Below are positions 9,744-60,136 of a stretch of 64,000 bases of DNA, piece after piece. Made by a program: the position numbers and the translations under genes. The DNA comes from Allacma fusca (Eukaryota > Arthropoda > Collembola > Symphypleona > Sminthuridae), in contig OX359246.1 of NCBI GenBank assembly GCA_947179485.1, positions 29,388,001-29,452,000 of the forward strand, written 5' to 3'. The stretch's first letter is position 1. Every line of letters starts with the position of its first letter. The notes beneath the pieces were generated by a model, which worked only from the letters and a program-made list of their open reading frames with translations, made no database searches and was not told the origin of the DNA.

Positions 9744-11836
9744 CTGCTACGTTATTTATCGTATCCTATCCATATCCTATCCCACAATTCCAAGATAAGA
9801 ATAAAATTTATCCTAACCGATCTTTTTTTACCGGATAAAAATAAAAGATCATCCGATCCTATCCGCGAACACTCGGATATCCGAAAATTATATCCGCATT
9901 AATCGGATAAAAATTTCAGTTTATCCGACTTTATCCGATACCATCCGCGAGATAACCTCAACTAAAATTTTGGGCGCAAAGTTTAATTATTTTGGGGAAT
10001 TTATTGCGTAGGAATCACATCAACAATTCTCAGCAACATAAATTTATTAAGTAAAAACGCAAACACCAAAACTTTCAAAGTTATCAACGCGTATTTATAA
10101 ACAGAAATGAGGCTATGACAGTATTAATTGACTATTGATAATTATTACACAAAACAACGCGAATCTGTTACTTTTTATTAATTTTGTTGTTTACATTTTT
10201 GAATATCAAATGAATCGGAAACGACGGAAACCTTCAATGATTCTACTTAAGCTTTACAGCTCTGAATATCATCATGATTAGGGGTGAGTATAACGAGACA
10301 ACGAGACGAGAATCTCGTTTTTTATGCATCAACGAGACAGTACGAGACATCTCGCTTTATTTAAAGAGAATATCGTTTGCAATTAAATCTTGTTTATACC
10401 CATCTCAAACTGAAAAATGAGGTGTTTTGATATGCCATTTTTCCAATTAGGACATTTTGCAGTTCTTGGTGCCAGCGTTTGCGGCACAAGAACGATTGCG
10501 GTAGGTCTTCATTAATTTTTTCAAGGCTTTCATGTTTTCTAATTTTATGGTCCAAACCTAAAAATAAATATTTTGCGCCTTGGGATTTTTCTAATTCGTG
10601 ATTCCTGGAGGGTGCGCCTTGAAGAGTAGATCATTTTTGATAATGGCTTTCATTAGACATATATTAAAGGTGTGCCGAGTTTGGTTCCAGTTTGTGACAC
10701 GATGACCAAGCTGTGACCTCCGAGGTCAATACCATACCCATACCGGATTTGGTGCCTAAAAATCATTTGAATTTCCCGCAAATATACTAGAACGTTTAGG
10801 TTAAGCCCAGATAAGTTGCCTGTCACGTTTGGTTCCATTTGGTGACACGATGACCAAGCTGTGTAATCCGAGGTCAATACTATACCCATACCGGATTTGG
10901 TGCCTATTAATATGTCTAATGAAAGCCTTAGTTCTAATCTGGGCCAGTTTCATCATCGTTAAGAATAGAAAACCTGTATCGACGTTCTTTGACCTCTTGA
11001 GGTCAGTATCGTAGAAATCTGAGGTCATATTTCGCTGAAAACGTTTTCGCACGTTATTTAAATTTTATTCTTGCCATTTTTGAAGTTATATTGCTAATTT
11101 TCACGGTTTGAATTTTTTGGTACCCCATGAGCCCCCCCCCTCATTTTTCGGTAACTTTAACCCGGGATATCTCCGAATCCTGCATTACGATTTCTTTGGG
11201 CCAATTATCAAAAATGATCTACTCTTCAAGGCGCTCCCTCCAGGAATTTTCTTATCGAGATCGAACAGGGGGCATGTTCTCATAAGGATTGTGCGGTGTC
11301 CTTTGTGCAGGCTACAATTAAATTGCATATATTTCAACACAAATACCATGTTTTTGCCCTGTCTCGTTTGTCTCGTGCGTTGCTTACTCTCGCTACTCTC
11401 GTTATCAAAATATCTCGTTCTCTTATTTTTTTCAGAAACGTGAACAAGATAAACGAGAATTTTAAAACCAACGAGATACTCACCCCTAATCATGATATAC
11501 TCACGCTTTTTAAACCAATTACGTTCGTAAAGTTGAATCATGCCGTGATTATCACATTTGTGACGTTACAGTCGAGAACCGCTGCAAGCAGTAGATGGTG
11601 GTATTATCGTCGGATATCCGCGGATGTCTGATAGGTTATCCGATTCACTCACATCTATTATCCTATCCGCACGGATAACACCTTGAGCTAAATCCTATCA
11701 TATCCGCTAAAATATTTCGGATAAATTTTGTATATCTTATCCGTTCGGATAATATTCGGTTAAAAATTTTAATTATCGTAACTTATCCTAACCGTTATTT
11801 ATCCGATTTAACCTATCCGATGCGAGCTTTAGGTAT
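9744..11836. mobile_element. ATCCG-word element interrupted by a hAT insertion
   Basis: Two arms built from degenerate TATCCGATCC-type words: 9760-9955 on the left and about 11605-11825 on the right. The same word makes up the element at 42578-43500, which has clean ends and an 8-bp duplication. Here the ends are less clear and no target duplication was found. The interior is occupied by the separate element 10279-11488. No transposase frame remains. Confidence 0.6.
10279..11488. mobile_element. CGAGACAA-word hAT-type element, TSD ATCATGAT
   Basis: The ends are inverted: TAGGGGTGAGTAT on the left, and the right end reads ATACTCACCCCTA. Both are flanked by a perfect 8-bp duplication ATCATGAT (10271-10278 and 11489-11496), the size used by hAT transposases. 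The arms repeat CGAGACAA and CGAGAATCTCG words (10290-10360, 11360-11478). The interior holds a second inverted pair (about 10590-10640 against 11200-11250) and an approximate direct duplication (10680-10763 and 10829-10912). No hAT transposase frame is visible, so the element is non-autonomous. Confidence 0.85.
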
Positions 11837-11839
11837 ACA

Positions 11840-12411
11840 GCTGTTACAGCCTCAGATTGGTGTAAAATAAAAGTTGGGATCACTCAAGTCTCACCCCGGG
11901 GTAAGATGTCTTATTTCGAAGGACCAGCGCCGCTACCAGCGCACGTTTAATATTTATTCAATAATCTCACCCACATTCAACTACCCTTTTATGAGTGGTA
12001 GCCTTTGCTACCCAGTGTAAGGGAAAATAAAAGGGTTTTTGTAGGTAAAATGTAGAGAAAATGAAAACTGATTCTTTATTACAGTCAAACACGTCGTTCT
12101 TTCCTCACACCAGAAAATATCATCCTCCTTCCATTCCACAATCACTTTTTCCATAGCATTACACTAACATTACATTACAATTCATACAACTACCAATCAA
12201 TTCACATTATATTCATATTAAATTAGAATCAACAATATGCACAAATGCACTACAACACCGAGTGAGTGTGAGTAACAGAGGCGAGCCGCTCCGCAGACAA
12301 GCTACGCTCTCCTCTCTACGTCTCACCTAGTACGCATAAAGTTCATTGCTCCTCGCGAACTCCTCTCCTCTGCATTCGGTTTTCTCTCCGTTCCCTCTCT
12401 CGTGAGTAAAT
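11840..12411. other. No gene seen
   Basis: Mixed sequence, locally less AT-rich (12260-12400), without a supported exon. It contains TTACAATTCATACAAC-like A/T-rich runs and CTCTCCTC-rich tracts only. Confidence 0.4.
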
Positions 12412-12745
12412 CAGAAGTAGAAATAAATCACTGATTTAAATCAAGGTAATGACTTCAAATTTCGCTGTTAATTAAAGAGCCTTTTGAATAAATGAAACAT
12501 TGTAAAACGTGTATTTGTCGTTCATGCATCATCAATGCAACCCGATCCCTCCAGCAGGGTAAAATTATTCGCTCCGTGAACAATAAAAAAAGAGCACATG
12601 GCCGCTTCTACACTTACATACAGCACAATAACTCCAACACTTGTATTAGATCAGTTCAAGTAAACACCGAAGCAAAGTATTAAAAACGGCAGGAAGAAAG
12701 CGAGATATTATTTGGTTAAAATTTCAAGAAGTCGGAATAGACAAT

Positions 12746-12901
12746 ATGAAAGGAAAGAGGGCAAAATGTAACGACTGTGGAATCGAAATGGAAGGACTAA
12801 TCAAGCGGATGAAAAAACATCTCGAGAAATGTGAACCCGAGATAGAGGAAGTCTTTGCCTTGGAAAATTTAGCTGCAGAGCCAGGTAATAATATATATTA
12901 A
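12746..12901 (+). CDS. hAT transposase N-terminal part (BED-like zinc finger)
   Basis: Short open frame starting at ATG 12746 and ending at TAA 12899-12901. It encodes a lysine-rich segment with C-x2-C (residues 8 and 11) and H-x3-C spacing (CNDCG, then KKHLEKC), consistent with the BED finger that begins many hAT transposases and binds the element ends. An acidic stretch (EPEIEEVFALEN) follows. The body of the transposase starts 20 bp later in another frame. A small intron with donor GTAATA at 12885 is possible, but no acceptor keeps the phase, so a small indel is equally likely. Confidence 0.55.
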   Translation: MKGKRAKCNDCGIEMEGLIKRMKKHLEKCEPEIEEVFALENLAAEPGNNIY

Positions 12902-12921
12902 TTTATTGTTTCGCCATTCAA

Positions 12922-14412
12922 ATGCTAAACAAATGGGCCAGATACGGTAATTATTCACCTATTGAAGATCCATGTCCTCTGAGAAAGTTCATCACGAAAA
13001 CTAGCAATAATGAAAAGAAAGTATTTGACGAACAAGTTGCAAGGTTCGTGTTCTCATCTAACTCGGCATTTAGAATTGTTAGTGACCCGGAGTTCGTAAA
13101 CCTTGTGACAATGTTACGGCCTGGCTATATTCCACCTTCAAGAGAATCAGCTGGAGAAGAACTTTTAAATCAGGTTTACGAAAAGGAACGTCAAATGTCT
13201 ACTACAGTCATCAAAGGTAGTATTGTTAGCCTTAACCTAGATGGATGGAGTAACGTCACAAACGATCCGATTATATGTTCATCGATTACAACATGCGAAG
13301 GCAAGTGCATGTTACTTGAAACGATTGACACCTCAGGTCATCCCAACAATGCGGAATATTTACTTGAGTTAGTTGAAAGGTACATTAATGTAGTTAAAAC
13401 TCAGTACGATGCTACAGTTGGGAGTGTTGTTACTGATAATGCAGCAAATGTAGCCCGGATGAGAAGACTGCTGGAAGAAAAAGATCATTCGATTCTAACT
13501 TATGGCTGCTCAGCTCACTTGTTGAATCTTTTATCAAAAGATGTTCAACTGGCCAATGTGAAGACCCAGGTGACTAAAGTAGTGAAGTATTTTCGAAACA
13601 ATCATTTTGCTTCTTCAAAATATAAAGCAACAAAGAAGAACAAACTGGTTTTGCCATCCGATGTGCTCTGGAGTTCCTTATCAGATTGCTTGGAGACCTA
13701 TCTAAATTCCTGGCCAACATTATTTACAATATGTGAAGAGAATCGCTTAGAAATCGCCGAAGATATTCAAGGTTTAATTTCAAATGTTGCACTCAAACGA
13801 AATGCTGAGATTTTACTATCGAGATTAAAGCCCATCTCCATCGCTCTGGACAAGCTGCAGAAAACTTCAGAGTCTATTACCGACTCTACAGAAGTGTGGA
13901 AAACTTTGGAAGAAGAATTCCACGCTGAGCAGTTTCCACGTACTGTGGTGACTAGCATGCAGGATCGAATGAAGCAAGCTTTAACTCCAGCTCACTTCTT
14001 AGCAAATATTTTGCATCCTTTGTATTTAGGGAAAAAATTGTCCGAAGATGAAATAGGCATTGCAATGGATTATGCCTTGAAAAAAACTGAGACTTGTCCT
14101 TCATTTATGCCCATGTTGGTAAAATACAGAGCCCAGTCAGGACCATTTGTCCCACCACTATTTCAACATTCTTTACTAAACGAAGTTACTGCTGTAGAAT
14201 GGTGAAAGTCCTTAACACATCAAATAGCTAAAGATGCTCAAGCAATAGCTATCCAACTTATTTCAGCATCCGCTTCCAACACTGGTTTGGAGAGAATTTT
14301 TTCGTTATTTGGTCTCGTACATACGGAAATTCGAAATCGACTTGGAAATGAGAAAGCTGGCAAGCTGGTATTTGTGCTACAAAGTTTAAAATCGAAACCC
14401 AGTGCTAAATGA
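12922..14412 (+). pseudogene. hAT transposase body with one in-frame TGA
   Basis: A 427-codon open frame ends at TGA 14203-14205, and the same frame continues to TGA 14410-14412 with clear hAT sequence, so the stop splits one protein of about 496 codons. Recognisable parts are the catalytic-core start with SLNLDGWSN and VVTDNAANV (first Asp regions), CSAHLLNLLSKDV (the conserved C-x2-H region), and the C-terminal dimerisation domain after the stop (SASASNTGLERIFS, then EIRNRLGNEKAGKLVFVLQS). The codon before the stop is TGG, so a single TGG-to-TGA change of a second Trp is plausible. It acts in the nucleus, cutting and pasting its own element. It is recent enough to lack other lesions in this segment, but probably inactive unless the stop is read through. 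Confidence 0.8.
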
Positions 14413-14738
14413 CCATTATTATTTATAGTAAAGGGAAAAATTCATATTGGTTTAAAACATTTCTTAATAGTTATAGCCTTCAAGTTGCTTATTTTAGTTG
14501 CTTTTACTTGGCATCTCAATTATTTTGCACAATATTTCTAAATTTTGTTAAATGTTTGTTGGACCGATAATGCATAAAATCGTATAGCAAAATTAAAATC
14601 CAGCTTAACCTTTTAAAATGTTACCTGATGATTTAATCTACAATTTAAATCAGAAAAGTTGATTTAAATAAAAAAATCCGATTTAAATCAAATAAATCGG
14701 ATTTTTTTGATTTTTTTTCAAAAAAATCAGCAACCCTG

Positions 14739-15910: not shown

Positions 15911-15913
15911 AAA

Positions 15914-17964
15914 TTAATAATAATAATAATAATAATGTTTATTAGCCATTAAAAGCATACACACAACTAGCACCTTTACAAATGATATGGTCATAAGGTA
16001 GCTAGCATGAAGATAGCAATGACGTACTATTAAAATCTTGAATATTAAATTAACCTACGACAAAAAGAACTTAATTCATACCTCATATTCAGAAAATCTT
16101 TTTCAATCAGATCTAGTTTGTTTAGTTCCCTAGTCAGATAAGGAACAGTTGAGTCAAAATATCTTACATTTTTGCAACTTTTTTCAACTAACAGACAATT
16201 TTTCCTAGTTTTTTTAATTTCAATCACATGTGGCCTAAGGATATACCTAAATCTAGGGGATTTGAACAATGATTTCCCAAACTTTAAACATTGATTTTTC
16301 ATACGGGTTAAAATAGGTTCTAGTTTTAATGTATGAATGGTATGGCTGTAGTTGTGCCTATTTACAATTTTGCCAGTGATTATGCTTAAGCATCTCTTTT
16401 CGAAACGAGTTATTCTAGTTTTTTCCTTATTTTTGAGACCAGAGTACCATACCGGAGAGCCATATTCTACAATGACTCTTATGTAGGCCTTATACACAAT
16501 TATTAATTCTCTTTGGTTGAAATTAAAGTACTTTAATTTCCTTAACATGAACAACCGTTTACTTGCTTTTTGAAGGGATAGATTAATATGGGTATTCCAT
16601 TTGACATTTTTGGATATATGTACACCAAGTAGTTTACTATCGTCACATTTCGGTATAATTTCATCATTAATAGTAAAATCTTGATTGGAGAATTTCTTGT
16701 TTCTACTTAAGTCTATAGTTAACTGTACACACTTTTTGGGATTCAGTACCATTTTGGATTCATTAAACCATTTATTTACCTCATCAAGCAAGCTTTGCAT
16801 TTTGGGAACACTGCCATATTTAACAACTTCAGCAAGTGCCACATCATCAACGAATATTGTAGTCAAGTTCGATGTGCTTTCATTGAATTTCGAATTAATT
16901 TTTTGGAGGATTGAATTTATCGAAATTACAAATAGTAACGGCGCTAATTTGGTACCTTGTGGGGTACCATTAAAAATTGGATACTTATTAGAAAGAACTT
17001 TGCCATCACGACAACATTGTTGTCTTTCTCTGAGAAACTCACATATCCATAAAATGTCATGACTATTTACATTGAGTTTAACAAGTTCATTAATCAATAT
17101 ATTGTGGTCAACCAAATCAAATGCCTTTTTAAGGTCTAAAAGCACAATTATTACGTATTGGTTTTGCTTATCCAAACCCCTATAAATGAAATCTAGTAAA
17201 CTGACTAGGTAATGACTTGTGGAGGCTTCTTTGATAGTCCCATATTGATTTACCTCAAGATTATTTATAATTTGACTATACAGTCTATTGAATATAAAAT
17301 TCTCAAGTGTTTTGATAAATAAATTAGTTTGAGTGATTGGCCTCACATCATTAAAACTAGTAATTTCGGTTGATTTGGGAACTGGAGTAATGAATCCAAC
17401 TTTCCAATCAGAAGGAATTACATAATTTGCCAGAGAAAAATTGAAAATAAACGTTAGTGGTTCTGTTATTAAACAGGCAAATTCTTTGAGTATTCTGGTC
17501 GGTAGGGAGTTAGGTACATTTGATTTGGTTGGTGGTAATGATTCGAGAGCTTTTAGGACCTGGAGGTTATTGAGTTCAAGTTGCTTTACGCCTTTCGCGA
17601 TTGGAGCCAAGCAAAAGTTTGATATTGGACTATAGGCCCTATTAATATCGGAGAAAAAACTGTTCATATCATCTAATAAATTACTTGTACTTTTCGCATT
17701 CAATTCATCGATTAAAATCTCAGTGCACGATTTTCTCTTTAAGTTACATATTGATCTTACTGCAGTATACCAATCTAGAGTCCCTATACGAACTTGAGAA
17801 GTAATCTTTTCCTTAAATTGTATTTTTGCGTAGTGAATTTTCCTTTTTAATCCCGATTTCATTTTTATGTATTCATTTTTGTCTCTATAGTTTCGATTTT
17901 TGAGTTTCCTAGCTAATTTAATGATTTTATCATTTAACCAAGGAGCCTGATTAATGTACTTTAA
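15914..17964 (-). mobile_element. 5'-truncated non-LTR retrotransposon
   Basis: A minus-strand element whose 3' end is an (ATT)n tract (15914-15935 on the plus strand as AATAATAAT), as in several LINE clades. It retains the reverse transcriptase and a C-terminal region but no endonuclease. The frame upstream of the RT stops at about 17964, consistent with incomplete reverse transcription. The clade could be CR1/Jockey/I-like; I cannot decide without a tree. No clear target duplication was found. Confidence 0.8.
16045..17964 (-). pseudogene. Non-LTR reverse transcriptase, N-terminally truncated ORF
   Basis: The frame is open from about 17964 to the stop at 16045-16047; its first ATG is at 17862, but protein similarity starts upstream (INQAPWLNDKIIKLARKLKN, typical of the linker between endonuclease and RT). 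RT landmarks in order: PVPKS and the RPIT region (about residues 155-180 from the first ATG), LLDLKKAFDLVDH (first catalytic Asp), NGTPQGTKLAPLLF (nucleotide-binding loop) and FVDD (catalytic pair, near 16840). After these come KLLGVHISKNVKW and a thumb/C-terminal region with VIVEYGSPVWY. The RT domain itself is uninterrupted over about 600 residues, but the endonuclease half is missing, so this copy cannot retrotranspose alone. The antisense 125-codon frame at 16685-17062 is a shadow. Confidence 0.88.
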
Positions 17965-21012: not shown

Positions 21013-22099
21013 CAGGGTTACTGATTTTTGTGATTTTTTTGAAAAAAATCAAAAAACTCGGATTTATTTGATTTTAATCGGATTTTTTTTTTTTTAAATC
21101 AATATTTTCTGATTTAAATTCAAAATTTTATCGTACGATATAATTCCCTTACAAATTTTTCAATTTTAATTTTTTAAATAATATTATACACGTTAGAACT
21201 AATGAAACTTGAACAATTAATAAAACCTGTTGACAGAAAATTACATAGGAAAGTCAACTATATAATATGAAATAAAAAGCTGGTTAAAGTCTGATTCCAA
21301 ATATCAACACTATTTTTTTAAAACTAGCAATTTCGAATTGAGTTTTGTCTTTGAAGCCAAACACTATGTAGGACAATTACCAGCTGTCTCATTTGGATCT
21401 TTTTTGTAATATGTAAATACACATTATGCACATTATATATATCTATAAATATATATAATTGTATAAAATGTGTAGTGTGTACATATATAGTGTTTCGGGA
21501 CAGGATGGTAGGGTATGTCGGGACCGAAAAATTATTTGCAAATTGAGAATATTAAGTTTAAACAAGTGTGAGTCCGTTCGATAATATGGCGTTTAAAAAA
21601 TGCTAAATTCCTACAGTCAAATCTTACCATTTTAAATAGATAGTACTCTTTTAGAAAGATTGGATGTTGGGATGTTTTTGTAGAGGCTGCGTTTCTGCTA
21701 GGGACGAGACATATCAGGACATAAGTATTGCCCCGTGTTATTTCGGGACAGGATCGGAATACATACTTATTTTTGTCACTGGATTTCGAAACGAAACGGA
21801 ATCGTCTGTGGGACAGAACAATTGTCCCCAGCAGAAGCTCTAGTAATATAATTACAATATTTTAAAACACTCATATCCAAATTTTATGGGACCGTGACAG
21901 CTTGACAGATATTTAATTTGAAACGCTTTCAAATCATCAAAGTCCAGAATAGTCTCATGCCCGAAATTCATAAAAACACAAAAATGCACGTTTTACAACA
22001 TTTCGAGACGTAAAATTACATGTTACCTAAACGTGAAAGTTCAATAGTCAAGTGATTTAAATCTTGATTTAAATCAGTGATTTAAATCAAGCCACCCTG
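21013..22099 (-). mobile_element. Non-autonomous hAT MITE related to the 12.4-14.7 kb element
   Basis: Left end CAGGGTTACTGATTTTTGTG matches the complement of the right end of the hAT element at 14738 (CAGGGTTGCTGATTTTTTTG). The right end carries GATTTAAATC repeats (22060-22090) and finishes in CCACCCTG. The orientation is therefore inverted relative to the coding element. Flanks TTCGGGAA (21005-21012) and ATTGGGAA (22100-22107) agree at 6 of 8 positions, a likely decayed target duplication. The interior has no transposase frame and includes a small GTCCC-type element remnant near 21680-21842. Confidence 0.7.
21678..21842. mobile_element. Short relic of the GTCCCC-word family
   Basis: The right end CAGCAGAAGCTCTA and left end TAGAGGCTGCGTTTCTGC resemble the ends of the element 56996-57891 (CAGAGCTTCTG and its complement), and the interior has GGGACGAGAC, CGGGACAGGATCGG and TTGTCCCC words. 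The flanks do not show a convincing 8-bp duplication. Confidence 0.45.
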
Positions 22100-23129: not shown

Positions 23130-23201
23130 GGGGATATAGCTCAGTGGTAGAGCATTCGACTGCAGATCGAGAGGTCCCCGGTTCAAACCCGGGTGTCCCC
23201 T
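23130..23201 (+). tRNA. tRNA-Cys (GCA)
   Basis: A full cloverleaf of 72 nt. The acceptor GGGGATA pairs with TGTCCCC (one G-T), followed by a discriminator T. The D stem is GCTC/GAGC with the GGT loop. The anticodon stem TTCGA/TCGAG encloses CTGCAGA with anticodon GCA at its centre. The T arm is CCCGG-TTCAAAC-CCGGG. The A-box-like TAGCTCAGTGGT and B-box GGTTCAAACC are present and there is no intron. A TTTT run at 23209-23212 fits a Pol III terminator. It delivers cysteine for UGC/UGU codons in the cytosol. Confidence 0.95.
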
Positions 23202-25232: not shown

Positions 25233-25316
25233 AACTCGCTGAAGAGGTAAGATGGTCTACGTGCGCATGCTTTTGTACAGCACTTTGACCATTTTGCCTC
25301 TACAGCGACGATATAC
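25233..25316. mobile_element. Mini foldback element, copy 1
   Basis: Ends CGCTGAAGAGGTAAGATGG and CCATTTTGCCTCTACAGCGA are inverted copies of each other. The centre GCGCATGCTTTTGTACAGCA is the exact reverse complement of the centre of the copy at 37576-37660 (TGCTGTACAAAAGCATGCGC). It is too short to encode anything and sits in an exon relic of the four-TM family. Confidence 0.75.
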
Positions 25317-29700: not shown

Positions 29701-29917
29701 TTATAAACAGGATCCAATGATATTTTAAGTAACAGGGATCATTTGCAGACTTCCCCGTTTCAGGCTGATCATCGATTTTAAAATTGTCATTCACCTTGGA
29801 AGGATTCGAGCACGGGATGAGCTGAGATAGTAGCACTTCCTCAGGATTTTGGACTTCGCTAATATCTTCAGGTTTCGCTAACGGGGCTGAACCGTTCCCT
29901 CCTCGTGTCATACCCAT
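26703..29917 (-). CDS. SLC3A-type heavy chain of amino-acid transporter (CD98hc/4F2hc-like)
   Basis: Nine exons join in phase to 550 codons: 29917-29539, 29276-29097, 28947-28685, 28572-28412, 27932-27713, 27559-27403, 27262-27158, 27012-26901 and 26775-26703. All junctions have GT-AG; the donor after exon 3 (GTCATT) is weak but gives the expected spacing. An N-terminal cytoplasmic tail with PEDISEVQNPEEVL precedes one TM helix (about residues 68-89). A GH13-like ectodomain follows: YYHIDLSGFGGKLQG, then FIPNHSS, EPDLNFRSPDVIREI, LGVDGFLLSKV, LPGQLVLNYGDEIGL and a beta-rich end. The nucleophile position after GVDGF is Ser rather than Asp, and the usual NHD motif is absent, so it should not hydrolyse glycosides. 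That is the pattern of SLC3A subunits, which carry light-chain antiporters to the plasma membrane. Several N-x-S/T sites fit a glycosylated ectodomain. The exon is open to ATG 29974, which would add 19 residues; an AG acceptor at about 29928 suggests the later start. No clear AATAAA follows the stop. Confidence 0.88.
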
Positions 29918-30057
29918 TAATTGTCCCCTAATGAGATGTAACAGGAAATAGTGAATTAAATTTAATATGTCCATTTGACTTCCTTTTCACAACTCACAGG
30001 AGAGTTTCATAATTATTGTGGAAGTTTTCTTCTGAATTTTCGTTCGATTAGTACATA

Positions 30058-45372: not shown

Positions 45373-45700
45373 CGCTGAAGAGGCAAAATGGACTAAGTGC
45401 AATTTCGAATAGAAGCAAAATGGTCTACATGCCTTTTTCCTTAAAGGCAAAACGGAATAGTTGCAAGCTTTCCTGAAAGCAAAATGAACTACATGCAGTT
45501 TTCACTAAAAGCAAAATGGTCTACATGCGTGTATACTTTCATAATGTATGTAGACCATTTTGCTTTTAGACGAAATTGCACTTATTCCATTTTGCTTTTA
45601 AAACTTGATGCATCTATTCCATTTTGCATTTAGTAAAACTGCATGTAGACCATTTTGATTTTAATCCAAAATGCATGTATTCCATTTTGCCTCTTCAGCG
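45373..45700. mobile_element. Large foldback element built from AAGCAAAATGGTCTAC units
   Basis: Ends CGCTGAAGAGGCAAAATGG and its complement at 45682-45700 are perfect inverted repeats, extended outward by ATATCGT/ACGATAT. Each half holds about five degenerate units of roughly 30-35 bp (GCAAAATGGTCTACATGC and GCAAAACGGAATAGTTGC types), in opposite orientation on the two sides of a centre near 45540. It is thus a long hairpin. It shares its ends with the mini elements at 25233 and 37576. Confidence 0.85.
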
Positions 45701-46126
45701 ACGATATGTAGTATGTAGATGACAGAAACATTGAGTGATACAGAGACCAAGATACTGATCGAATTCCCAAATTCTACCGAATTATATTTTCTCATTTAGT
45801 TCGACTACGAAGATAGAGACAGGGACGCTCTATTCTACGATTGTACTGTAACACAGAAGGGTTTATAGATACTATTGAATGGGACAACTATAAGGTTTTT
45901 AGAGGAAGCGCAGTAGATATAATTTGTTAAGTTATAAGGGAAAGGTTTTAGGAAATTTAGACCAATTATTTTACACATCATCTTCACAGTCTAATGTTCT
46001 GTTTCGTCTTTCAAAATTACGTCGCATCAATATTACAACAAAATATTGGTGTATCAAACATGCCATGTATATTGTGGGCTGATCTATAATCGACATGATT
46101 AGAGACGCTATCACTGAATCTCACAG
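45701..46126. other. No gene seen
   Basis: Spacer between the foldback element and the Harbinger element. No supported feature. Confidence 0.4.
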
Positions 46127-46357
46127 TAAGAGAGGATTCCCATGGAGCTACTCTGCGTGTGCGTTTTGCGTTTGACGCAGATATTTTGCGCGCGGGATGA
46201 GAACGTGATTGCTTTGTAACGCAACAAAAGATACGCGCGTACAGACATCTGCGTGTAGACTTCAAAAAGTAGAAGTTGAGAATTTTCAACTTCCATTCCC
46301 ATCGTACTTGCGTTTGACATACGTTTTACACACAAAAATCTCCAAAGATTATTAAAA

Positions 46358-47441
46358 ATGCCAAAAACAAGGCAAAGTAATGATCAGGACGATTCATGGG
46401 AAGAACGACTGATCGAAGCAGTTTATTTGCGAAGTTCTATTTATGATCTAAAAGACCCGGACTACTCAAGAACTAAGAAGAAAAATCAGGCGTGGAAGGA
46501 CGTGGCGGAGGAAGTCATGAAGCCGGGTAAGTACATTGTGCCTTTTTGCATGAGGACGAAAAATACATGTATTCTTTTATTTTCCAAAATATAATTATAC
46601 AAATGTATTCACGCTGCTAAATTGTAAACTTGTTAAAAAATGTATTCATGTGAATTATATTTTGTTACTAAACCATTGTTTTAATTTTAGAGGCGATATG
46701 CCGAACCCGATGGAGAAGCCTTAGGGATCATTTTAAGAAGAAAGAGGCGGACATGAAATCAGGAAAAAGTGGGAAAGGCTTAGAGGAGGGAGAAAACACT
46801 CCTTGTTCCTGGAAATGGTTTTCGCGCCTGTCCTTTCTCCGGGAGAAAACATACCACGGAACGTAAGTGATTACTTTTAGTTTAGCAATCACAATACAGT
46901 CTAACAAATTATAACCAATTTAAACCTGAACAGTTAATGTATATGTAAACAGAGTTAATTTTATTTTGGCCACTGTAACTCAATGTACTAGCACGACAGA
47001 TACTATGGATGATTCAAACGATGCTAATGTTGACGGTGAATGTAACCTGACTGTGAATACTGAACGTCCAGCAGGTGAAATTGTTACTACTCCAAAGGAT
47101 AGCACAAAGAGCATCGCTAAGGTAAACATACATTTAAATCTCTACATAAATTGAATTTCATTCAAATTATCGTGCTATAATTTTGAACAGAATTGAATGT
47201 GGAATGTCTTCGTTTTTAGAAGCGAAAATCAAGCCCGACTCAATGGACAGGAGTCATTGATCAGCTTAAAAGTGTTATGGAAGTTTCAAATTCCCAGATG
47301 ACGGAAACAACTTCCGACTCTTTCGGAGCTTATCTGGCAAAAGAAATGGAAGATATGACTTCTGAAGAAAGGGATGACTTCAAATACGACGTGGCTACTT
47401 TGATTAGAAACATCAAGAGATCCAGAAAAAATGTGTTGTAA
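46358..47441 (+). CDS. Harbinger accessory MADF/Myb-like DNA-binding protein, 243 aa
   Basis: Four exons, 46358-46526, 46691-46862, 46953-47121 and 47220-47441, sum to 732 nt in phase; introns are GT-AG (GTAAGT, GTAAGT, GTAAAC donors). The N-terminal half (about residues 10-110) is a MADF domain: RLIEAVYLRSSIYDLKDPDY, then WKDVAEEVMKP, CRTRWRSLRDHFKKKEADMK and SWKWFSRLSFL. The C-terminus FGAYLAKEMEDMTSEERDDF followed by KYDVATLIRNIK resembles the BESS protein-interaction motif. In Harbinger transposons such a protein partners the transposase, aids its nuclear import and binds the ends. An AATAAA overlaps the stop region (47441-47446). Confidence 0.85.
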
Positions 47442-47515
47442 ATAAATATACAACTAATGCACTTTTTTGAGAAACTTTTGCAACCGAATTATTTTTATTT
47501 TCAAAGTGGTTAAAT

Positions 47516-49177
47516 TTAATAATCAACTACCCTCTCATTCTGCCAACTGACACATCCTTCATTGCTAAAAAATCTGGCGTACATATCGCGAACCACCTTA
47601 GCTCTATTTGGTGGATTATTTGACCCCTGATGAGATACCCGTTCATTATGATGATTTGCTACACGTCTCCAAGATCCAGGTAATATAGCATGACTCACAG
47701 GATCCTCGCTGTCCACAAATCCAGGTGGAAGATACATTCTAATTCAAAAATATGTCATGCGGCCTAAAAAATTAAATTATATAAATAATTATTATTATTG
47801 AGTCAATACATTCTCAGTTGCTGCTTGCTTCGTATCCAATTATGTAAGCATACACAGCATAGAATTGCCCACTTAGCATTCTCGTCTGTTAAATAAACTG
47901 TGTTTAAAAGCAATCTCCAACGGGCAATAAGAATTCCAAAGGAATTTTCGATAATTCGTCGGGCTCGGCTTAACCTGAAATAGCATTAAATATTAGCATA
48001 AATCTTAAAACAATTTCTTAATGAGCTAAGCTTTACCTGTAATTGAAAACTCTTTGTGGCAATGTCAGATTGTCTCCCGGATACGGGCGTAGTAAATTCG
48101 GTAGTAATGGAAATGCTTCATCTCCGACAAAAACATAAGGTGCACTTATGTTGCTATTTGGTAAGAGTGAGGCGGCAGGAAGAGGCAGATTATTTGTCAT
48201 CATCTTCGGAAAGAAAACAAATTATTAATAATTGTTAAATGAAATTCGTTTTTGAACAAGTGAAAGGTTACTTTATCCCCAAATTTGCTGCGCCTGAAGA
48301 TACCACCATCACTTTCGGATCCCACAGCACCGACGTTGGCATATGTAAAATTGTAATTCGCATCACACACAGCTAGCATTATAACCGAGAAGTAACCCTA
48401 TATACATATAATATCATTTAGTATTTAAGTAATCTTATTCACACATTAATTTTTTGAAATGTACAAACTTACTTTGTAATTATGATAAACGCTTGACGAG
48501 TTAGCAGGAGCCGGGATAGCGAAATGTTTGCCATCAATGGCACCAACACAATTAGGAAATTGCCATTGTCGGGAGAATTCCTCTCCAGCTTTTCGCAAGC
48601 CGATTTCATTTAGTGGAGGAAGAACTGCTTCATGTAATGTGTTGTAAATTGCTCGAGTTGTTTCATTGATAATATTACATATGGTACTTTTGCCAACACG
48701 ATAGTCTTTAGCAATCGATTTTTGGGCATCCCCGCTAACCAAGTAAGCTAAGGTCATCATCAATCGCTCCGCGGGCTGTATTGCCTCCCTTCCGAAGTTA
48801 TGCTTGCTAATATGAGGACCCACCATTGTTAGAAGCTCTTCAAATGTTTGTGGAGTCATTCGGAAGGTCTCGAAAAAATACTCTGGGTCATCTCGTATCA
48901 TGTCCGGCACCTAGTATACGTTTTAATGAAGATTTTATACAAATACAAAAATTATTTGTCTAAAATTATATTAAATTATTTAATAGAAATTTACATGACT
49001 TACCCCAACGTAAAAATCTCCTCTTTCTTTTCTCATTTTAAGAAACGGACGTACCCAATATCGCCGTGTGGACTTGTTAATACTTGTCTCCATGTCATCA
49101 TGGAGTGCTTTTAAAACTAATGTCACTAAAATTTTATTTCTTTTCCTCTTAAACAGTATTTTACGATTGCTAGCCAT
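47516..49177 (-). CDS. Harbinger transposase (HARBI1-like DDE nuclease), 430 aa
   Basis: Six exons, 49177-49004, 48910-48473, 48397-48272, 48203-48037, 47974-47810 and 47738-47516, give 1293 nt with all phases consistent and GT-AG junctions. The N-terminus ends in RRYWVRPFLKMRKERGDFYV. A helix-turn-helix-like region follows (KSIAKDYRVGKSTICNIINE). The catalytic acidic residues sit in CVGAIDGKHFAI (first Asp), VGAVGSESDGGIFRRS (second Asp) and RRIIENSFGILIARWRLL (Glu). The C-terminus PPGFVDSEDPVSHAILPGSW is characteristic of the family. ATG 49177 was chosen because the upstream frame lies in the non-coding terminal region. No stop or frameshift was found. It should cut and paste the element into TWA sites together with the MADF protein encoded opposite. 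Confidence 0.88.
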
Positions 49178-49992
49178 TGCAAATTCAGTAAATGGGTTGA
49201 CATGACACGCAAGCATGAGAATCAGTTTCCGTAAGAAATGTTTGCGTGAAACGCAAATATGAACCGCGCGTTTTTTTCCCGCGTTTGGCGCACACGCAGA
49301 CCGCAAGTATTTTTTATCCTTGTGAATAGACCTTAAGTAGGAAGCTTTTGTCTTCAGATCAACATCCCAGTAAACCACGGTATGTTGACCTAACGTTAAA
49401 ACCTGATGCTCCGTTCTTGCCATCAAAAGCTAATGTTGTAGGAGTGCTTGACCAATAGAGTTATGGTACAAACGCTTTGGTAGCATTTGTGCTCAGCTTT
49501 AAGAAATTGTTAAAAATTCGCTTACAAATTGCAATAGTGAAACGTTACGAGAAAGTGATGCAAAACCGTTATTGATGAAATACTAGCATAACGTTAATGC
49601 AGCGCTAGAGTTAACGGACTTGCGCGTGAACTAGTGTTTCTGATCGAGTTCGGGAAACTCGAGGTTTCGAGTTCGAGTCGGGTTCGAGTCGAGTTCGAGC
49701 CTAATATTTTTGGTACCGTTTGCTTTCGAGTCGGTTTCGGGTATCAAGTTTTGGACCCGAAAAAATCGGGTCGAGTTTGCAAAATTAAAAGTAAAAACTT
49801 ATTTTGGAATTATTGATTTATGTTACCTTAACAATAAAAATTGGCCTTCCTGCCACCTCTGATTAATAAAAATATGCAGTTTTTGTGGAAAACATCAAAG
49901 AAAACAAAACAGTCTCTGAATGCAGCAAGTATTTGTACATGACCGTATAACACTCCTCATACCTAAGTTTTATTACCGCACGAAGCTACGCA

Positions 49993-50525
49993 CCCTAATA
50001 TGGCAAGGATTAGTACTCGGAACAGTTCAGTTCGATTCAAAATTTGCAGTTCAGTTCAGTTTGAGCAGTGAACTGAAACGAAAATTCGGTTTCGGTTCAG
50101 TTCAAGCAAAAACAGTTCAGTTCAGTTCAGTTTCACCCGATGAACTGAACTGAATCGGTGAATCAAACAATTCAGTCGCAGTGTTTGGTAAACAAAAATA
50201 ATTGCGGGTGTACACACAAAGATCCGAATTTAGTCATCCGAGTCAATCCCAGAAAAACTGATTTTTTCCCTCTTAACCTGTTCCTAATCGTATTCACCAT
50301 TCACCATTCAGTTCGATTCAAATACTGAATCGAACTGTTCAGTTCAGTTCAACAGCTGAACTGAACTGTGTTTATAATGAATCAAACTGAACTGAACTGA
50401 ACCGAATCGGAATTTTTCGGTTTTGAACTGAACTGGTCCGAGTACTAGCAAGGATGGCGCGTGAATTCTTGGGTGTTCCTGGCATTCCTATCGAGCGTGC
50501 TTTTTCGTTGGCTCCGACATTTTAA
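49993..50525 (+). pseudogene. hAT transposase C-terminal remnant, split by an insertion
   Basis: When the element 50011-50447 and one GCAAGGAT copy are ignored, the flanking sequence reads THPNMARMAREFLGVPGIPI then ERAFSLAP. That is the start of the hAT dimerisation domain (compare the usual A-R-D-x-L-x-x-P ... S-E-R-x-F-S pattern). A stop follows directly (TAA near 50523). It shows that the enclosing element derives from an autonomous hAT. Inactive. Confidence 0.6.
50011..50447. mobile_element. GTTCAGTTC-word hAT-type element, TSD GCAAGGAT
   Basis: Left end TAGTACTCGGAACAGTTCAG and right end GAACTGGTCCGAGTACTA are inverted, with perfect duplications GCAAGGAT at 50003-50010 and 50448-50455. 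Nearly all of its 437 bp is AGTTCAGTTCAG or its complement with substitutions; only about 50170-50300 is different. Non-coding. Confidence 0.92.
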
Positions 50526-50644
50526 CACTGAAATGTTTGGCTACTCAAGGAGATACGATATGGAAGTTTCCGCTTTTAATATCGTGGTTAAAGTTGGCAT
50601 TTAACAAGTTTATCGAAGCAACAATGAAGATCATTACGGAGGTT

Positions 50645-52601
50645 TAAGCATGAGATCGGTTCGGTTTAACGCGGTTATCCGACCATCGGTTAACCGAAAC
50701 CGACGGTTCGGATAGAAAAGCCGTAACCGAATTGAAATAACCGAACGGTTCGGATACGTCAATGCCTAACCGGATATCGGTTTCGGATCGGTTCGGTTTT
50801 AAATATGAATTTATCCGTTCGGTTCGGATTAAGTAAATGTATCCGATCGGTTAAACCGACGGATAACCGATTCTGAATTTCGTTCCTACAATTTTTAGAA
50901 AATCGTAATCGAGAACGGCCGTAGCATGAATTTCTCGAGACAAACGATTGTTTCATTATTTACCGAGCTGCGCACAAGTACAAGTAGACCACGAGTATTT
51001 CAAGTCAAGTTCGCGTTCGGGTCGTGGTCAGGTAAATAATATTAAAACCATGAACGGTTCGGGTCGTGTTCAGGTATTTCATGGACTTGACCATGATTTC
51101 TTACTTTAAGTCAAGTTCGTGGTCAAGTATATTTATTTTACTTGAACCACAGTACCTGGTCATGTTCAAGTAAATATTAAGAAGTACTTGACCATGAACT
51201 TGAGTTTGTGGTGTATAAGTTGAAGTAATTTTGTTAGCGCAAGTCTTCATGGCTGAGAGAATTTTCAATGCACTTACGATTCCCTATACTAAATAATACT
51301 TAAAGCGGCATTTTAGTGCAACTTGTTTAAGAGACCTTTGTTAACTTGTTCTTTGTACGCAAATACAAAACAACGCTCAACACTCATATTGCTACTTAGA
51401 AATTGATTTAAAAACGTTCGTACCCATTTTTACAATAGTATGTGTCAGTTAAACCTAAAAGAGTTCTGTTCCACCGAATATGTCAACTGCGACACCAGGT
51501 ACACGAAATCAGAGTAGATCTCCAGTGTACCATCATTCAACATTCAGTGAAAAGGACCAAAAATACAATTATTATTTTTACAGGCGATTGCTCGCAAAGT
51601 GCTGGGTGAAACCTATTGTGTTAGATACCTATATTCTTTCGTTACAAATATAAATTTTTCTCCAGTAAAATTTAAGATTTTGGTGATCTACAAATTAAGT
51701 TTCTTGTACATGAAAGTTCAAGTTCATGGTCAAGTTCGGGTCATGGTCAAGTCAAGTTGAAGTTGGACCCGAAACACGAGTATAAAATCATGGTCAAGTA
51801 ATCTAGAATTACTTGAAAACCCGAACTTGTTTCATTCAAGTATTACTTGAACTGAAAATGTCAAGTTCGGGTAATCTTGAAATACTTACTTGAAAAGTCG
51901 GGGTCAAGTCAACTTCGTGGCCGGATCTTTATAAATACTTAACCCGAGCGCAGCACTAATTATTTATATGCAATATATTTAAAAAGCACAACACATGGAC
52001 CACGAGCAGGCATTCATTTGTTAATCACTGCGCAATTATTTCTAACACCATTATTAAATTTTTATCTTAAGTTGAATAAGTTCCTTGTTACTAGAACTGA
52101 TATACCATCAGTGGAAACCTCCGACTCCGTAATAAGAGCAGAAACTACCTCTAGCAATGAGCCTTTAAAAGGAGATGAAGAGCTGGGTTTGGGACCATTT
52201 AGTCTTACTGGAGATTTGGTCCTTGGATTTTTAATTGTCATTTGAAATTAAATAATAGGAAAAATTTAATAAAAATTATTGTAATAATTTGTTTTAAGTT
52301 TGAACGACATTTTTATTAAAAAAAAAAAAAATTTCCAAAAAAGATTTTAATAAAAATCTATCTGGTTCGAATGAAGTTTTCACTGGTAAAATGTGCAATA
52401 TTGTTTCGGTTATTCGGATAACCGACAAACGGTTCGGTTTTAAAAATCATCCAAACCGATGCATGGCGGTTCGGTTTCGGATTGGAGTATTTTTTTATCC
52501 GAACAAAACGGTTCGGTTCGGATTTCTCCAAAAAATTAACCGAAAATTCCGGTTCGGTTACGGTTCGGATTTGTGTTTTAACCGAACCGATCTCATGCTT
52601 A
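50645..52601. mobile_element. GGTTCGG-word hAT-type element, TSD CGGAGGTT
   Basis: Left end TAAGCATGAGATCGGTTCGG and right end CCGAACCGATCTCATGCTTA are perfect inverted repeats of at least 20 bp, flanked by CGGAGGTT (50637-50644 and 52602-52609). The arms (50655-50875, 52400-52590) are CGGTTCGGTTAACCGA words. It carries the insertion 50963-51958. A 75-codon plus frame at 52018-52245 has no recognisable motif. Confidence 0.92.
50963..51958. mobile_element. CATGGTCAAGT-word hAT-type element, copy 1, TSD ATTATTTA
   Basis: Left end CCGAGCTGCGCACAAGTACA and right end GAGCGCAGCACTA are imperfect inverted repeats; perfect duplication ATTATTTA at 50955-50962 and 51959-51966. The arms are CAAGTTCGTGGTCAAGT words (50975-51220, 51715-51915). 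The interior has an ATG-started fragment (51480-51620) with SRSPVYHHSTFSEKDQKY, which resembles the opening of a BED finger. That is another hint of hAT descent. Same family as 58911-60136. Confidence 0.88.
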
Positions 52602-52908
52602 CGGAGGTTGCCGGTTGTACCAAATTATAATGAGAATTTGAAATTATATTGAAAAAAATGCTCATTTTTCGGGACTGTGTGATGTTGTATTTTACGTAAA
52701 TTTTGTGTCTGGTTTCGGTTCGAGTTCGAGTCGGTTTCGGGTATAACATTTCTTAACGGTCTCGGTTTCGAGTTTCGGGTATAAAAAAATTTCCCGACTC
52801 GAATGTCCCGAGTTCGAGTTCGAGCCCAAAATTGGAATTTACACCGGGTTTTGTTTCGAGTCGAGTCGAGCCCAACTATTTGTTACCGATAGAAACACTA
52901 GCGTGAAC

Positions 52909-56150: not shown

Positions 56151-56164
56151 CAAGCAGGGCTTAC

Positions 56165-56995: not shown

Positions 56996-57891
56996 CAGAG
57001 CTTCTGTTGGGGACAAAATTCTTGTCCCGTCCCCGTCCCGTCCCGTCCCGATATTTTTTCAAAACCTTTGTCCCCAGTCCCGTCCCGACAATCGGGACAC
57101 GGTGACAAAAACCATGTCCCCGTCCCGTCCCCAAAAAATTATAAAAACGTTGTCCCCGGTCCCGTCCCGAAAGTCGGGACATGGGGACAAAAATCTTGTC
57201 CCCGTCCCGTCCCCAAAATTTTTAAAAAACGTTGTCCCCGGTCCCGTCCCCAAAATTTTTAAAAAACGTTGTCCCCGTTCCCGTCCCCAAAATTAAAAAA
57301 AAATATTGTCCCCGGTCCCGAAAATCGTGGCATGTGAACAAAATTCCTGTACCGTCCCGATAATTACTGAAAACAGTTGTCAACATTCTCCTACCGAAAA
57401 TCGGAACATGAGGAAAATTTCGTACAAAAAATATTTGTACCAAAAACATGAAAAACACATTTATAGAATCGTGGCTAAAAGATTCATCCTTAACTTTTTG
57501 AGCAACAAGCCTCATTTTCTACAACCTAAAATCGAATGTCTTACATTCGGTGAAATAGTGTTCACAGAATAGTTTACTCATGAGCATTAAAGCTGAAACG
57601 TTATCCTTGTTCTGCTATGCTTGCTCGTCCCGTCCCGTTATATACACGACCAAAAAGCATGTCCCGTCCCGAATATAATGGGGACAATTGTTTTTGTCCC
57701 CGTCCCGTCCCGAATATAGTGGGGACAATTTGTTTTGTCCCCGTCCCGTCCCTGATATAATGGGGACATTTTTTTTTGTCCCCGTCCCGTCCCGAATACG
57801 ACATGGGGACAATTATTTTGTCCCCGGGGACGTCCCGTCCCGGTCCGTCGAGTGTCCCGACGTCCCGTCCCCGTCCCCGGCAGAAGCTCTG
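56996..57891. mobile_element. GTCCCC-word hAT-type element, TSD CTCCAGGG
   Basis: Left end CAGAGCTTCTGTTGGGGAC and right end GTCCCCGGCAGAAGCTCTG are inverted, with perfect duplications CTCCAGGG at 56988-56995 and 57892-57899. Arms of GTCCCCGTCCCGTCCC words occupy most of 57005-57360 and 57625-57880, with regular phasing (GGGGACAAAAATCTTGTCCC units of roughly 55-60 bp). This array creates many long false reading frames on both strands. Non-coding interior. Confidence 0.92.
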
Positions 57892-57899
57892 CTCCAGGG

Positions 57900-58902
57900 A
57901 CCGCATGTGTATGTAGTTTATATTCACAATTAACCCCAAAACAAATATTTGTCGTAGTTGGCTGTACCTGGGAGTTATACAAAGAGCGGACTAATTTTTT
58001 CAGGCGTAGCGCAAATTACTAGACAATGTTTTCATTCTATCTGCAAACTGTGTTTAACGCATGCAATTTTATTTGGAAATAAATAATTTGTAGGAATTTA
58101 AGCCGATTTTATTTATGCTGCTGATTTCCAAGCCTAAGATTATGTTCAGATAATAAACCCTTTAAGATCAATTTGGAGAACTGTGTGGGCATAAAACAGT
58201 AAACAATTGTATTTTGAAATTGTACGTCAAAATACTGTGCTACGAACATCCTCCGAATATCTATGCGGGTCTGAGTAAGGATTTGATGCTAAAAAATAAT
58301 TTTGTGCCAAAATAAACTGGTATAAATCATTATTATTGAGAGCCATTTGCGGACTGACATGTTGCTTTGTTTACGTTTGAGTCTTTTAAACCCGGCACTG
58401 TCTGTAAAGATAGAGACTATAATCTCTCTCATGTGTAATTTCCCAGGGTACTCAATTACTGCATATACATATGTATTCGCAGTGGGTATTTCCAATGTTT
58501 AGCACCGTATCTTCACAATGGTTCGGCTACATTAAGTTTTTATACAAAGTGGCTCACATTTCCCCCCTCCTACTATGGCCCACATACGGTGATAACAAAA
58601 TTGTTGTGGTACACGTGGGGAGGGTCATATCATATGCAGTTTTTTCTCAAATTTGGGGAAAATCGCTATTTAAATTTGTTTTAAAAATTATTTCATTGGC
58701 CTAAAAAATTGCTGATAATCGAAGTCACAACCTTGAGAAAACTTAAGCACAAGAGGATTTTTGTATTCGATTACCAAGTTGTTTTAGAGCCAAAGAGATT
58801 CCTACAAAGAACGTTAAGGAAATTTTTGAAAATGCTTCGTGCACGAATAAATAATTCCTAATTTTAAAATTCCTTTGAAAAATTCCGTCTTTGCTTTACG
58901 TA
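57900..58902. other. No gene seen
   Basis: AT-rich, with only 68-77 codon frames lacking motifs. Confidence 0.4.
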
Positions 58903-58910
58903 TTTGCAAC

Positions 58911-60136
58911 CAGAGCTGCGCTCAAGTCAAGTAAATCCCAAACTTGACCCTGAACTTGACTTGACCCTGACAGTCAAATAGGTTTTTCAGACGGTCTTGA
59001 ACTTGACGATTCATGGTCAGACAATTACTTGAAAATCCAGGGTCAAGTATTCAAGTATTTTTCGCGTACCTTGAACCTGGTCAAGTATAGCCGGGACAAC
59101 TCTTGACTTGACCATGACTTGACCGTGACCCGAACTTGACTTGAATTGTCAAGTTTTTTAAAAATATAAATATAGAAATAGTATTCACACTTCAAATACA
59201 GCAAGTACGCCATTCATGGTTAAAACATAGCAAATAACAATATTATTCACAACTCACAAGATTCTCCAAGTAAATGAGTTGCTGCTTCAGTTCGATACTA
59301 TATTGTCTTGTGTTTTAGTTTTAGCCAACCTTCAATCTCGAGAAACTACGAATAGTCTCTGCTATTTGAGTAGTCTTTTAGATGTAAGTAAATCATTTTC
59401 CATTGAATTTTACTGTCAATAATAATTAACATTCAAGTTTGGGTTGCTTCACTAAAAATATCCGCAGTTCAGGTTCCCTATTGTTAATTAAACAAACTGA
59501 CTTATGTAGTAGTGTTTAACGTTGTACAAATGCTAAATTATTTAGAATAAAAAGAGTACTTGGATTTAAGTAACTTGATTCATTAACAATGCGTTTATTT
59601 TATACAACAATCGAACATTGAACACTGTTGCTTTCATCGGTGCTGCTCCAAAGTTTTTGTATTCGTGTTCTTTCGTTCACTATTGCAGCTGCGGCTGTGG
59701 CTTCCAAAGCGTATCTAGAGATATTGAATCGTTACGCAAAAATAGGTACATTAGAAGACATTTAAAAGAACGTGCATGTATACGGAGTCTCGGAATTACG
59801 ATAACAACATTATGAAAGAAAGCCTATTGAAATATATGGCGCCACAACCTTGATATGCGTAACGTTTCGTTGCTTGAATAAGTACTTGAAATACTTATGG
59901 TTCATGGCCAAGGATTTATATATTTTTACTTGACCATGAACATGACCTGACTCTCAAGTAGAATATTTTGTCTTGACCATGATAACTACTTGATTTCAAA
60001 TCTCAGGGTCAAGTAGAATAAATAACTTGACCACGACTTGAATGTTCAAGTATCCATTATATTTTACTTGACCATGACCCGAACTTGACCATGACTTGAA
60101 ATACTCATGGTCTACTTGAACTTGAGCGCAGCTCTG
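58911..60136. mobile_element. CATGGTCAAGT-word hAT-type element, copy 2, TSD TTTGCAAC
   Basis: Left end CAGAGCTGCGCTCAAGT and right end ACTTGAGCGCAGCTCTG (spacing differs slightly) are inverted; perfect duplications TTTGCAAC at 58903-58910 and 60137-60144. The arms repeat CTTGACCATGACTTGA words (58925-59155, 59880-60125). It shares ends and arm word with 50963-51958 but its interior differs. A 65-codon plus frame at 59618 has no motif. Confidence 0.9.

Follow-up and report, generated by a model that had tools for sequence, protein, structure and literature searches.

The window analyzed here, a stretch of 64,000 bp from the springtail Allacma fusca (contig OX359246.1, positions 29,388,001 to 29,452,000), contains hAT-type transposable elements whose subterminal arms are filled, on both sides, with one short repeated word (Table 1). 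The window elements were checked first, their arms were tested without preset words, and the whole genome (392.7 Mb in 91 contigs) was used afterwards. A scan for exact 10-bp terminal inverted repeats (TIRs) with identical 8-bp flanks returned eight pairs in the window, seven of which are word-armed elements (marked in Table 1), compared with three pairs summed over 100 Markov shuffles and a maximum of one per shuffle. The eighth pair (3017-5494) is false and sits within a long inverted repeat, recognized by eye at about 2880-5900, which is its source. A looser scan, which allowed one mismatch in the TIR and one in the target-site duplication (TSD), gave 28 pairs in the window versus 4-18 in ten shuffles and was too unspecific, so the exact scan was adopted. 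When a TIR mismatch or an imperfect TIR is allowed, nine window elements carry a perfect 8-bp TSD, two match at 7/8 positions, and two more are decayed.

A preliminary description of this DNA had claimed word-armed elements with inverted ends and mostly perfect 8-bp TSDs, each family with a word of its own. Those elements are real, the TSD counts bear the claim out, and the word is shared by the left and right arms in all 22 complete elements treated below. However, a transposase-carrying family with the word GATTTAAATC (two members in Table 1) had been overlooked, and some of the elements are members of one family (two each for ATCCG and CATGGTCAAGT). The transposase open reading frame (ORF) of the GATTTAAATC family matches Pfam DUF659 over the cut-off (E 3.4e-14), and its genomic copies L002, L003, and L004 have identical 8-bp flanks and the ends CAGGGTGGCTTGATTTAAATC / CAGGGTTGCTGATTT. 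The decayed ATCCG element at 9744 carries 8 and 11 occurrences of CGGATA per arm, and its arms align to those of the transposase-bearing locus L031 with scores of 61.5 and 75.5; its TSD was looked for and not found, with the word arms present. The GAATA element carries 14 and 9 occurrences of CTATTC per arm, and the arms of E7 align to those of E8.

Table 1. Word-armed hAT-type elements in the window (positions counted from its first base; MITE, miniature inverted-repeat transposable element; exact, recovered as an exact TIR and flank pair).
Position	Strand	Element	Word	TIR or ends	TSD	Remarks
~9744-11836		decayed element	ATCCG			arms 9744-9960 and 11605-11836, split by 10279-11488; ends by eye
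10279-11488		E2, non-autonomous hAT-type	ACGAGAC	TAGGGGTGAGTAT	ATCATGAT	exact
12424-14738	+	hAT-type	GATTTAAATC			transposase ORF 12892-14205 (DUF659); left end truncated
21013-22099		non-autonomous copy	GATTTAAATC family	CAGGGTTACTGATTTT / CAGGGTGGCTTGATTTAAATC	6/8, by eye	
30625-31233		hAT-type	GCCTA	CAGTGATGGGCAC	7/8	weakest word signal of ten
31414-32648		hAT-type	GTACCTG	TAGTGCCCC (1 mismatch)	GTGCGCGG, perfect	
32829-33958		hAT-type	GAATA	CAGTGCTGCCC/AAGTGCTTCCC	ATGTGCAC on both flanks, by eye	
42578-43500		MITE	ATCCG	TAAGGTTCTCAACGGAT	GGCGTCAG	exact; arms align to L031
43617-44797		hAT-type	GCCCAAAATG	TAGGGTATGTCGAT	7/8	
49632-52900		hAT-type	CGAGTTCGAGT	TAGTGTTTCT	GCGTGAAC	exact; contains nested elements
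50011-50447		E5, MITE	AGTTC	TAGTACTCGG	GCAAGGAT	exact; belongs to rewritten-word clade
50645-52601		hAT-type	GGTTCGG	TAAGCATGAGATCGG	CGGAGGTT	exact
50963-51958		E7, decayed element	CATGGTCAAGT (AAGT)	poor	ATTATTTA on both flanks	nested in 50645-52601
56996-57891		hAT-type	GTCCCC	CAGAGCTTCTG	CTCCAGGG	exact; arms partly tandem
58911-60136		E8, MITE	CATGGTCAAGT (AAGT)	CAGAGCTGCGCTC	TTTGCAAC	exact

For 15 window elements, the commonest 6-mer in each 250-bp arm was compared with 200 self-shuffles of that arm. This 6-mer is the same on the left and right in 8/15 elements, and in most of the remaining ones the two arms have overlapping or shifted versions of it. It differs from the top word of the interior, save in the 437-bp element, where no interior exists. 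When arms are judged individually, 22 of the 30 exceed all but at most 10 of their 200 shuffles; those that do not stand out are the left arms of the elements starting at 10279, 30625, 43617, 56996, and 21013, the right arm of 49632, and both arms of 12424 (8/30). As background, 179 windows outside the elements peak at nine occurrences (a simple repeat) and typically hold three to four. In a consolidated test with 300 shuffles on 22 complete elements, comprising ten from the window and 12 genomic ones with a hAT transposase match, the best 6-mer of the left arm is found in the right arm more often than in any shuffle in 22/22 cases. It occurs 8.18 times on average in the element's own right arm, whereas the mean for right arms belonging to other elements is 0.32. 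The maximum in another element's right arm is 15, which presumably arises between the two ATCCG elements. Word density in the interior is below one per kb in most elements, with higher values for GTCCCC (6.8), AAGT (3.2), L111 (2.1), and L033 (1.3). The words fill about half of bp 12-100, most arms have irregular word spacing and mixed orientation, and tandem runs are short in most families, GTCCCC being the long exception. The possibility that the two arms form one long inverted repeat was rejected, as the left arm aligned to the reverse-complemented right arm scores within 60 block shuffles in 10/12 elements and marginally above them in two (47.5 vs 46.5; 41.0 vs 40.5).

Word-like stretches outside the listed elements were also seen. 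The GTCCCC element appears to have decayed relatives in GGGACA-word stretches at 4240-4580 and 21480-21841, and the sequence near 21825-21841 resembles an end of that element (CAGCAGAAGCTCTAG). An array of the word CCACTTCC without visible TIRs lies at 1278-1430. Elsewhere in the genome, at about 1900-2130 of L014 (locus orientation), a GAAGGAAGG arm has expanded to a near-perfect tandem repeat of ~29 bp, where slippage acted.

The position of the words relative to the tips was scored at the 44 ends of the 22 complete elements, the words being defined from the sequence at bp 46 and deeper. In all 44 ends the first word begins at bp 12 or later, and in 27/44 it begins at bp 12-15, where random points in the arms predict a fraction of 0.34 (binomial p 2e-4, which is indicative, the two ends of one element being non-independent). 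In 5 of the 12 transposase-bearing elements (L029, L033, L021, L025, and L016), the first word of the right end lies ~9-10 bp deeper than that of the left, about one helical turn, the left/right starts among them being 12/21, 12/22, 14/23, 14/24, and 17/26; the other seven show an offset of 0 or other values. These positions suggest a rule for locating hAT ends, namely a tip of ~11 bp followed by words that mostly begin at bp 12-15.

A genome search with PF05699 (Dimer_Tnp_hAT, the hAT dimerisation domain) yielded 860 candidates, and all 150 that were scored lie over the cut-off. At 24 transposase loci chosen by hand, a search for both ends found a TIR with identical 8-bp flanks in 12 cases, the identical flanks being partly a search criterion. 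Both ends were not found at the other 12, which are L012, L032, L114, L022, and eight loci of the clade of E5 where the stretch was too short (L107, L108, L109, L112, L113, L115, L116, and L117); the transposase at L022 belongs to an element nested inside an E5-like one. Among 12 clade loci examined, an arm lies 3' of the gene at ten, and none was seen there at L116 and L117. For four window families, a relative that carries a transposase has the same word as the window element: ATCCG (L031, whose TIR and arms match the window element), E5 (L089, itself an E5 element containing a transposase match), AAGT (L114, with the arm at the 3' end, the sole end seen), and GCCTA (L009, where the 3' end, the sole end seen, shows the same TIR and word on inspection by eye). 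For GTACC, ACGAGA, GCCC, CGAGTT, GGTTCGG, GTCCCC, and GAATA, no relative was found among the loci inspected, no family-by-family search having been made. Pieces of L031 and L010 are over the Pfam cut-off, and an RNase-H piece of L031 is below it (E 0.0011). The tips read CAG, TAG, TAA, CAT, or TAT, and the TIRs are short (10-17 bp) and in some cases imperfect, as in L010. The 8-bp TSDs and short TIRs assign the elements to the hAT superfamily, as does the transposase evidence for ATCCG, E5, AAGT, and GCCTA (through relatives) and for GATTTAAATC.

Copies of several families are abundant in the genome. Searches with the TIRs gave 285+261 matches for ATCCG (up to two mismatches; reversed control 19+26), 1165+1162 for AAGT (up to one mismatch; reversed control 22+20), and 237+244 for E5 (up to two mismatches; control 0+1), while the left-end pattern of E2 gave 143+137 (up to two mismatches; reversed control 6+5) and a sister family of E5 gave 810+805 (up to three mismatches; control 0+3). 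For ATCCG, 20 copies (exact-TIR pairs of 0.8-1.0 kb, the first places listed) were examined together with the window copy, and arrays of 11-24 words per 250-bp arm are present in 21/21. Perfect TSDs flank 14/20 of these copies and the window copy, as well as 10/10 further AAGT copies and 7/7 E5 copies.

Conservation of the words was assessed by counting a column as a word column when either sequence has a word there. Between the ATCCG MITE consensus and the L031 element, differences occur in 13/211 word columns and 56/226 spacer columns, whereas singletons private to one of the 21 copies fall on words (81/4304) and spacers (83/4718) with nearly the same frequency, the 2x2 table of divergence versus singletons giving p 1e-5. 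Outside CpG, the between-lineage counts are 3/124 and 45/209 (p 2e-5). The words are thus neither mutationally cold nor protected after insertion, and are conserved along the lineages that still move. The more diverged element at 9744 differs in the same direction (words 35/199, spacers 87/242), and in a control over all 5-mers with enough columns, the word or its shifted forms are among the lowest, not always the lowest. For AAGT, pairwise alignments gave 31/171 vs 94/269 and 46/228 vs 94/284 for words and spacers, and a MAFFT comparison with the lineage of the L017 copy gave 22/117 vs 56/117 (p 3.7e-6). The arrays in 21/21 ATCCG copies and in the transposase-bearing relatives L031, L089, L114, and L009 (the last two at one end), together with these counts, support the earlier reading of the arms as putative binding sites; neither array-less ATCCG copies nor drift like that of neutral microsatellites, which would have spoken against it, was found.

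The clade of E5 offers a view of how words differ between families. Consensus sequences were built from eight copies of E5 (AGTTC) and five of its sister family (RATTC), of which ten copies had been fetched and six had both ends. The arms are homologous, with alignment scores of 54.5 for left-left (block-shuffle maximum 33) and 41.5 for right-right (maximum 31.5), and cross comparisons remain at shuffle level. In the left arm, the word has G in E5 and A in the sister at 12/12 homologous sites, while other G/C positions changed in 7/47; in the right arm, the same holds at 7/8 aligned sites, with three more in gaps, and other G/C positions changed in 14/60. Six families (E5, L111, L113, L115, L109, and L107), whose transposases are ~50% identical to that of L108 except for L107 (97%), have arms that align nearly gap-free; the arm of L113 matches the sister family by eye. 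Fifteen sites were picked by the TTC core, which is 94% identical, and not by the letter tested. The letter before TTC is G at 11/15 sites in E5, A at 11/15 in L111 and at 14/15 in both L113 and L107, T at 13/15 in L109, and mixed in L115 (G7/A6/T2). Within-family homogeneity of this letter is 70/90, whereas permuting letters among families at each site gave a mean of 48.2 and a maximum of 58 (5000 permutations), and the letter one further out reaches 60/90 (null maximum 60, p 0.0004). In the other arm (E5, sister, and L111), homogeneity at 20 sites is 50/60, with a null maximum of 48. Spacer columns show no concerted change (98/252, null mean 97.1, p 0.42). The letters sort by family and not by site, so site-wise inheritance of the letters does not hold.

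On balance, we favor the view that whole docking arrays were rewritten in place when the letter preferred by the transposase changed, nearly all of the 15-20 homologous sites per arm being converted with the layout, the TTC core, and much of the spacing kept, which would yield co-resident families with different words. Under this reading, the mixed letters of L115 would mark an array whose conversion is still incomplete. Without any selection following a change of specificity, a concerted change might also be produced by gene conversion among the words or by a mutator that depends on sequence context (a deaminase, for instance), and such an origin could draw on the 19/20 aligned word changes from E5 to sister that are G-C to A-T. 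Repeats are known to be homogenised by gene conversion. However, one transition does not explain the T of L109, the other G/C positions of both arms changed far less often, the spacer control shows no concerted change, and conversion would need tracts of a few bases because diverged spacers lie between the words; we consider this origin unlikely. Rewriting in place also bears on the earlier suggestion that the arms are amplified binding sites giving specificity. Arrays in copies and in coding relatives, and words that mostly differ, agree with that suggestion, but "amplified" does not, since the word positions are homologous across transposases of ~50% identity within one clade, and the sites there are thus old, with changing letters, and not freshly multiplied.

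Taking these results together, we estimate with a probability of roughly 0.85 that the families are hAT DNA transposons and their non-autonomous derivatives, and that the words are subterminal repeats bound by each family's own transposase, which selection for mobility maintains and which are rewritten together when the specificity changes. The repeated word would be the site recognized by the BED-finger DNA-binding part of the family's transposase, while the first ~11 bp of each end would be a separate, word-free tip used by the catalytic part. Many words per arm might allow cooperative binding by a multimeric transposase and the pairing of the two ends. Selection would act at movement, as copies with mismatched words would not be mobilised, and the words would in this way stay constant between lineages. 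Once a transposase lineage came to prefer another word, existing sites would be converted singly to the new letter, and the outcome would be sister families that share an array layout written in different words. The arrays, the TIRs and TSDs, their presence in transposase-bearing elements, the preferred start at bp 12-15, the conservation between lineages, and the concerted letter change are observed; that the transposase binds the words, that the BED finger sets the word, and that events took this order is what we infer from them. The mostly different words between families are as expected if the words give specificity.

Several observations weigh against this proposal. In the GATTTAAATC family, which is outside the 44 ends, the right-end word begins at bp 11, and the transfer of the word from the right arm to the left is weak for L021 (reached by 8/300 shuffles) and for 30625-31233 (two found, shuffle maximum three). 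Six of the 20 ATCCG copies are without a TSD (5-8 mismatches), and the AAGT copy C1:4042380-4043740 (L081, L082) has a perfect TSD yet only two words in its right arm, so a full array at both ends is not strictly needed; beyond bp 29, this arm is not AAGT and holds GCCTA-like words by eye. The tests on AAGT are weaker, with words 52/184 and spacers 105/280 (p 0.045) in the MAFFT comparison with E7 and 2/86 and 14/153 (p 0.057) against L114, and the AAGT 2x2 tables against polymorphism are not significant (p 0.47 and 0.19), the copies being near-identical and one chimeric copy inflating the singletons. The letter A is common to three of the six families, so their words are not all different. 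A simple BED-helix code for the variable letter was sought and not found: L111 and L107 share the letter A before TTC, yet end in HLTRRH and HLDRSH, and the latter recurs in L109, whose letter is T. The BED finger itself was recognized by eye only, as a Cys-Cys then His-His pattern in several N-terminal exons, with a single Pfam zf-BED match below the curated cut-off (L031, E 0.09) and none for two other N-terminal pieces, and in-frame stops interrupt the matched stretches of at least L089 and L111. Finally, the housefly element Hermes retained ~70% of its activity when some inner putative repeats were mutated, but lost most or all of it when the region was scrambled (PMC10368747); by analogy, the inner words here may act otherwise than through BED binding.

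The same Hermes data (PMC10368747), in which the inner end sequence matters although its putative BED sites can be mutated with modest consequences, could suggest that the words bind a host factor, such as a transcription factor, a chromatin protein, or the silencing machinery, and not the element's own transposase. The arms flank the element's gene and could conceivably act as promoters. One shared factor, however, would explain neither words that mostly differ between co-resident families nor sister words changed in concert, and gene-less non-autonomous copies retain the words, which makes this explanation quite improbable. Neutral satellite growth, with microsatellite-like arms expanded by slippage and homogenised without any role in movement, accounts for the partly tandem GTCCCC arms (units of 37-82 bp), the short tandem runs in several other arms, the 6-bp indels between ATCCG copies, and the one GAAGG-type arm that is an expanded tandem array (L014), but it is very improbable, given long tandem arrays in GTCCCC alone, irregular spacing and mixed orientation in most arms, first words at bp 12-15, homologous sites persisting across families with ~50% identical transposases, and ATCCG word sites that are constrained between lineages while new mutations are unbiased, which already contradicts it for that family.

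Binding of the words by the family's own transposase would place these arms among known subterminal binding regions. CACTA elements of the En/Spm type have subterminal motifs bound by TNPA, and resemble the present arms in carrying a short motif in both orientations, but they belong to another superfamily with 3-bp target duplications and another transposase. Nearer parallels come from three hAT elements. The BED finger of Hermes recognizes AAG(T/C) repeats that adjoin the TIR on its inner side, the first BED contacts lie within bp 11-27 of the left end, and ~220 bp of each end are required in cells (PMC10368747). Its short repeats inside the TIR at both ends, in mixed orientation and end-specific arrangement, resemble those found here, and the CAAGT word of the window contains AAGT; the difference is that Hermes has 17 and 14 sites over ends of ~450 bp, whereas the present words cover about half of bp 12-100 and differ among many co-resident families. 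In the mosquito element Herves, the transposase binds CGATTCAT repeats, and one short motif, CG/AATTCAT, with its variants at both ends is sufficient for binding; the repeat copies are few, and the portion of the report available holds no sister-family comparison of homologous arrays (PMC3143072). In maize Ac, the transposase binds AAACGG (PMC3260210). Ac/Ds resembles the present families in having hexamers within 200-bp subterminal regions, cooperative binding, and non-autonomous copies that share the repeats, and some Ds1 copies move without an exact hexamer; it differs in being a single family with a single word, and only three hexamers were reported as required (PMC3260210).

The preliminary description knew of no account of such arms as a general design. 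That hAT elements have subterminal repeats, that a BED finger binds them, and that they vary from element to element has already been published (PMC10368747, PMC3143072, PMC3260210), and the binding regions of hAT transposases were stated to differ in sequence, ensuring specificity, in the Herves report (PMC3143072). A limited search of the open literature, in the portions available, returned no report of word-tiled arms across co-resident families or of a concerted word change, and for hAT elements of springtails it yielded just an annelid paper. The question addressed by the present families is how a transposase and its many binding sites can change together without loss of function. One genome offers a clade with alignable arms, transposases of ~50% identity, hundreds of copies for two counted families, and letter changes that can be followed site by site. 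Between two sister families, one and the same letter differs at almost every corresponding word site, which gives a view of transposon specificity evolving. The question becomes testable by binding assays on a few fingers and by counts of intermediate arrays. In addition, the words suggest a way to match MITEs with the enzyme that moves them.

Besides the hAT-type elements, the window possesses a further type of MITE, not hAT-like by eye, with ends near ATCGTCGCTGAAGAGGCAAAATGG and a repeated AGCAAAATGGTCTACATGC; it is present in a hairpin form at 45377-45695 and in forms of ~75 bp at ~37582-37655 and 25235-25312. A PIF/Harbinger-like element was recognized by eye at ~46100-49330, with an HTH_Tnp_4 match in the ORF at 48446-48910 and a second gene near 46360-47440. 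An ORF for a LINE-type reverse transcriptase lies on the minus strand at 16045-17964 (RVT_1, E 1.9e-31). Also on the minus strand, an SLC3A2-like amino-acid transporter gene occupies 27100-29990, with an SLC3A2_N match below the cut-off. A tRNA gene was identified by eye at 23130-23201.

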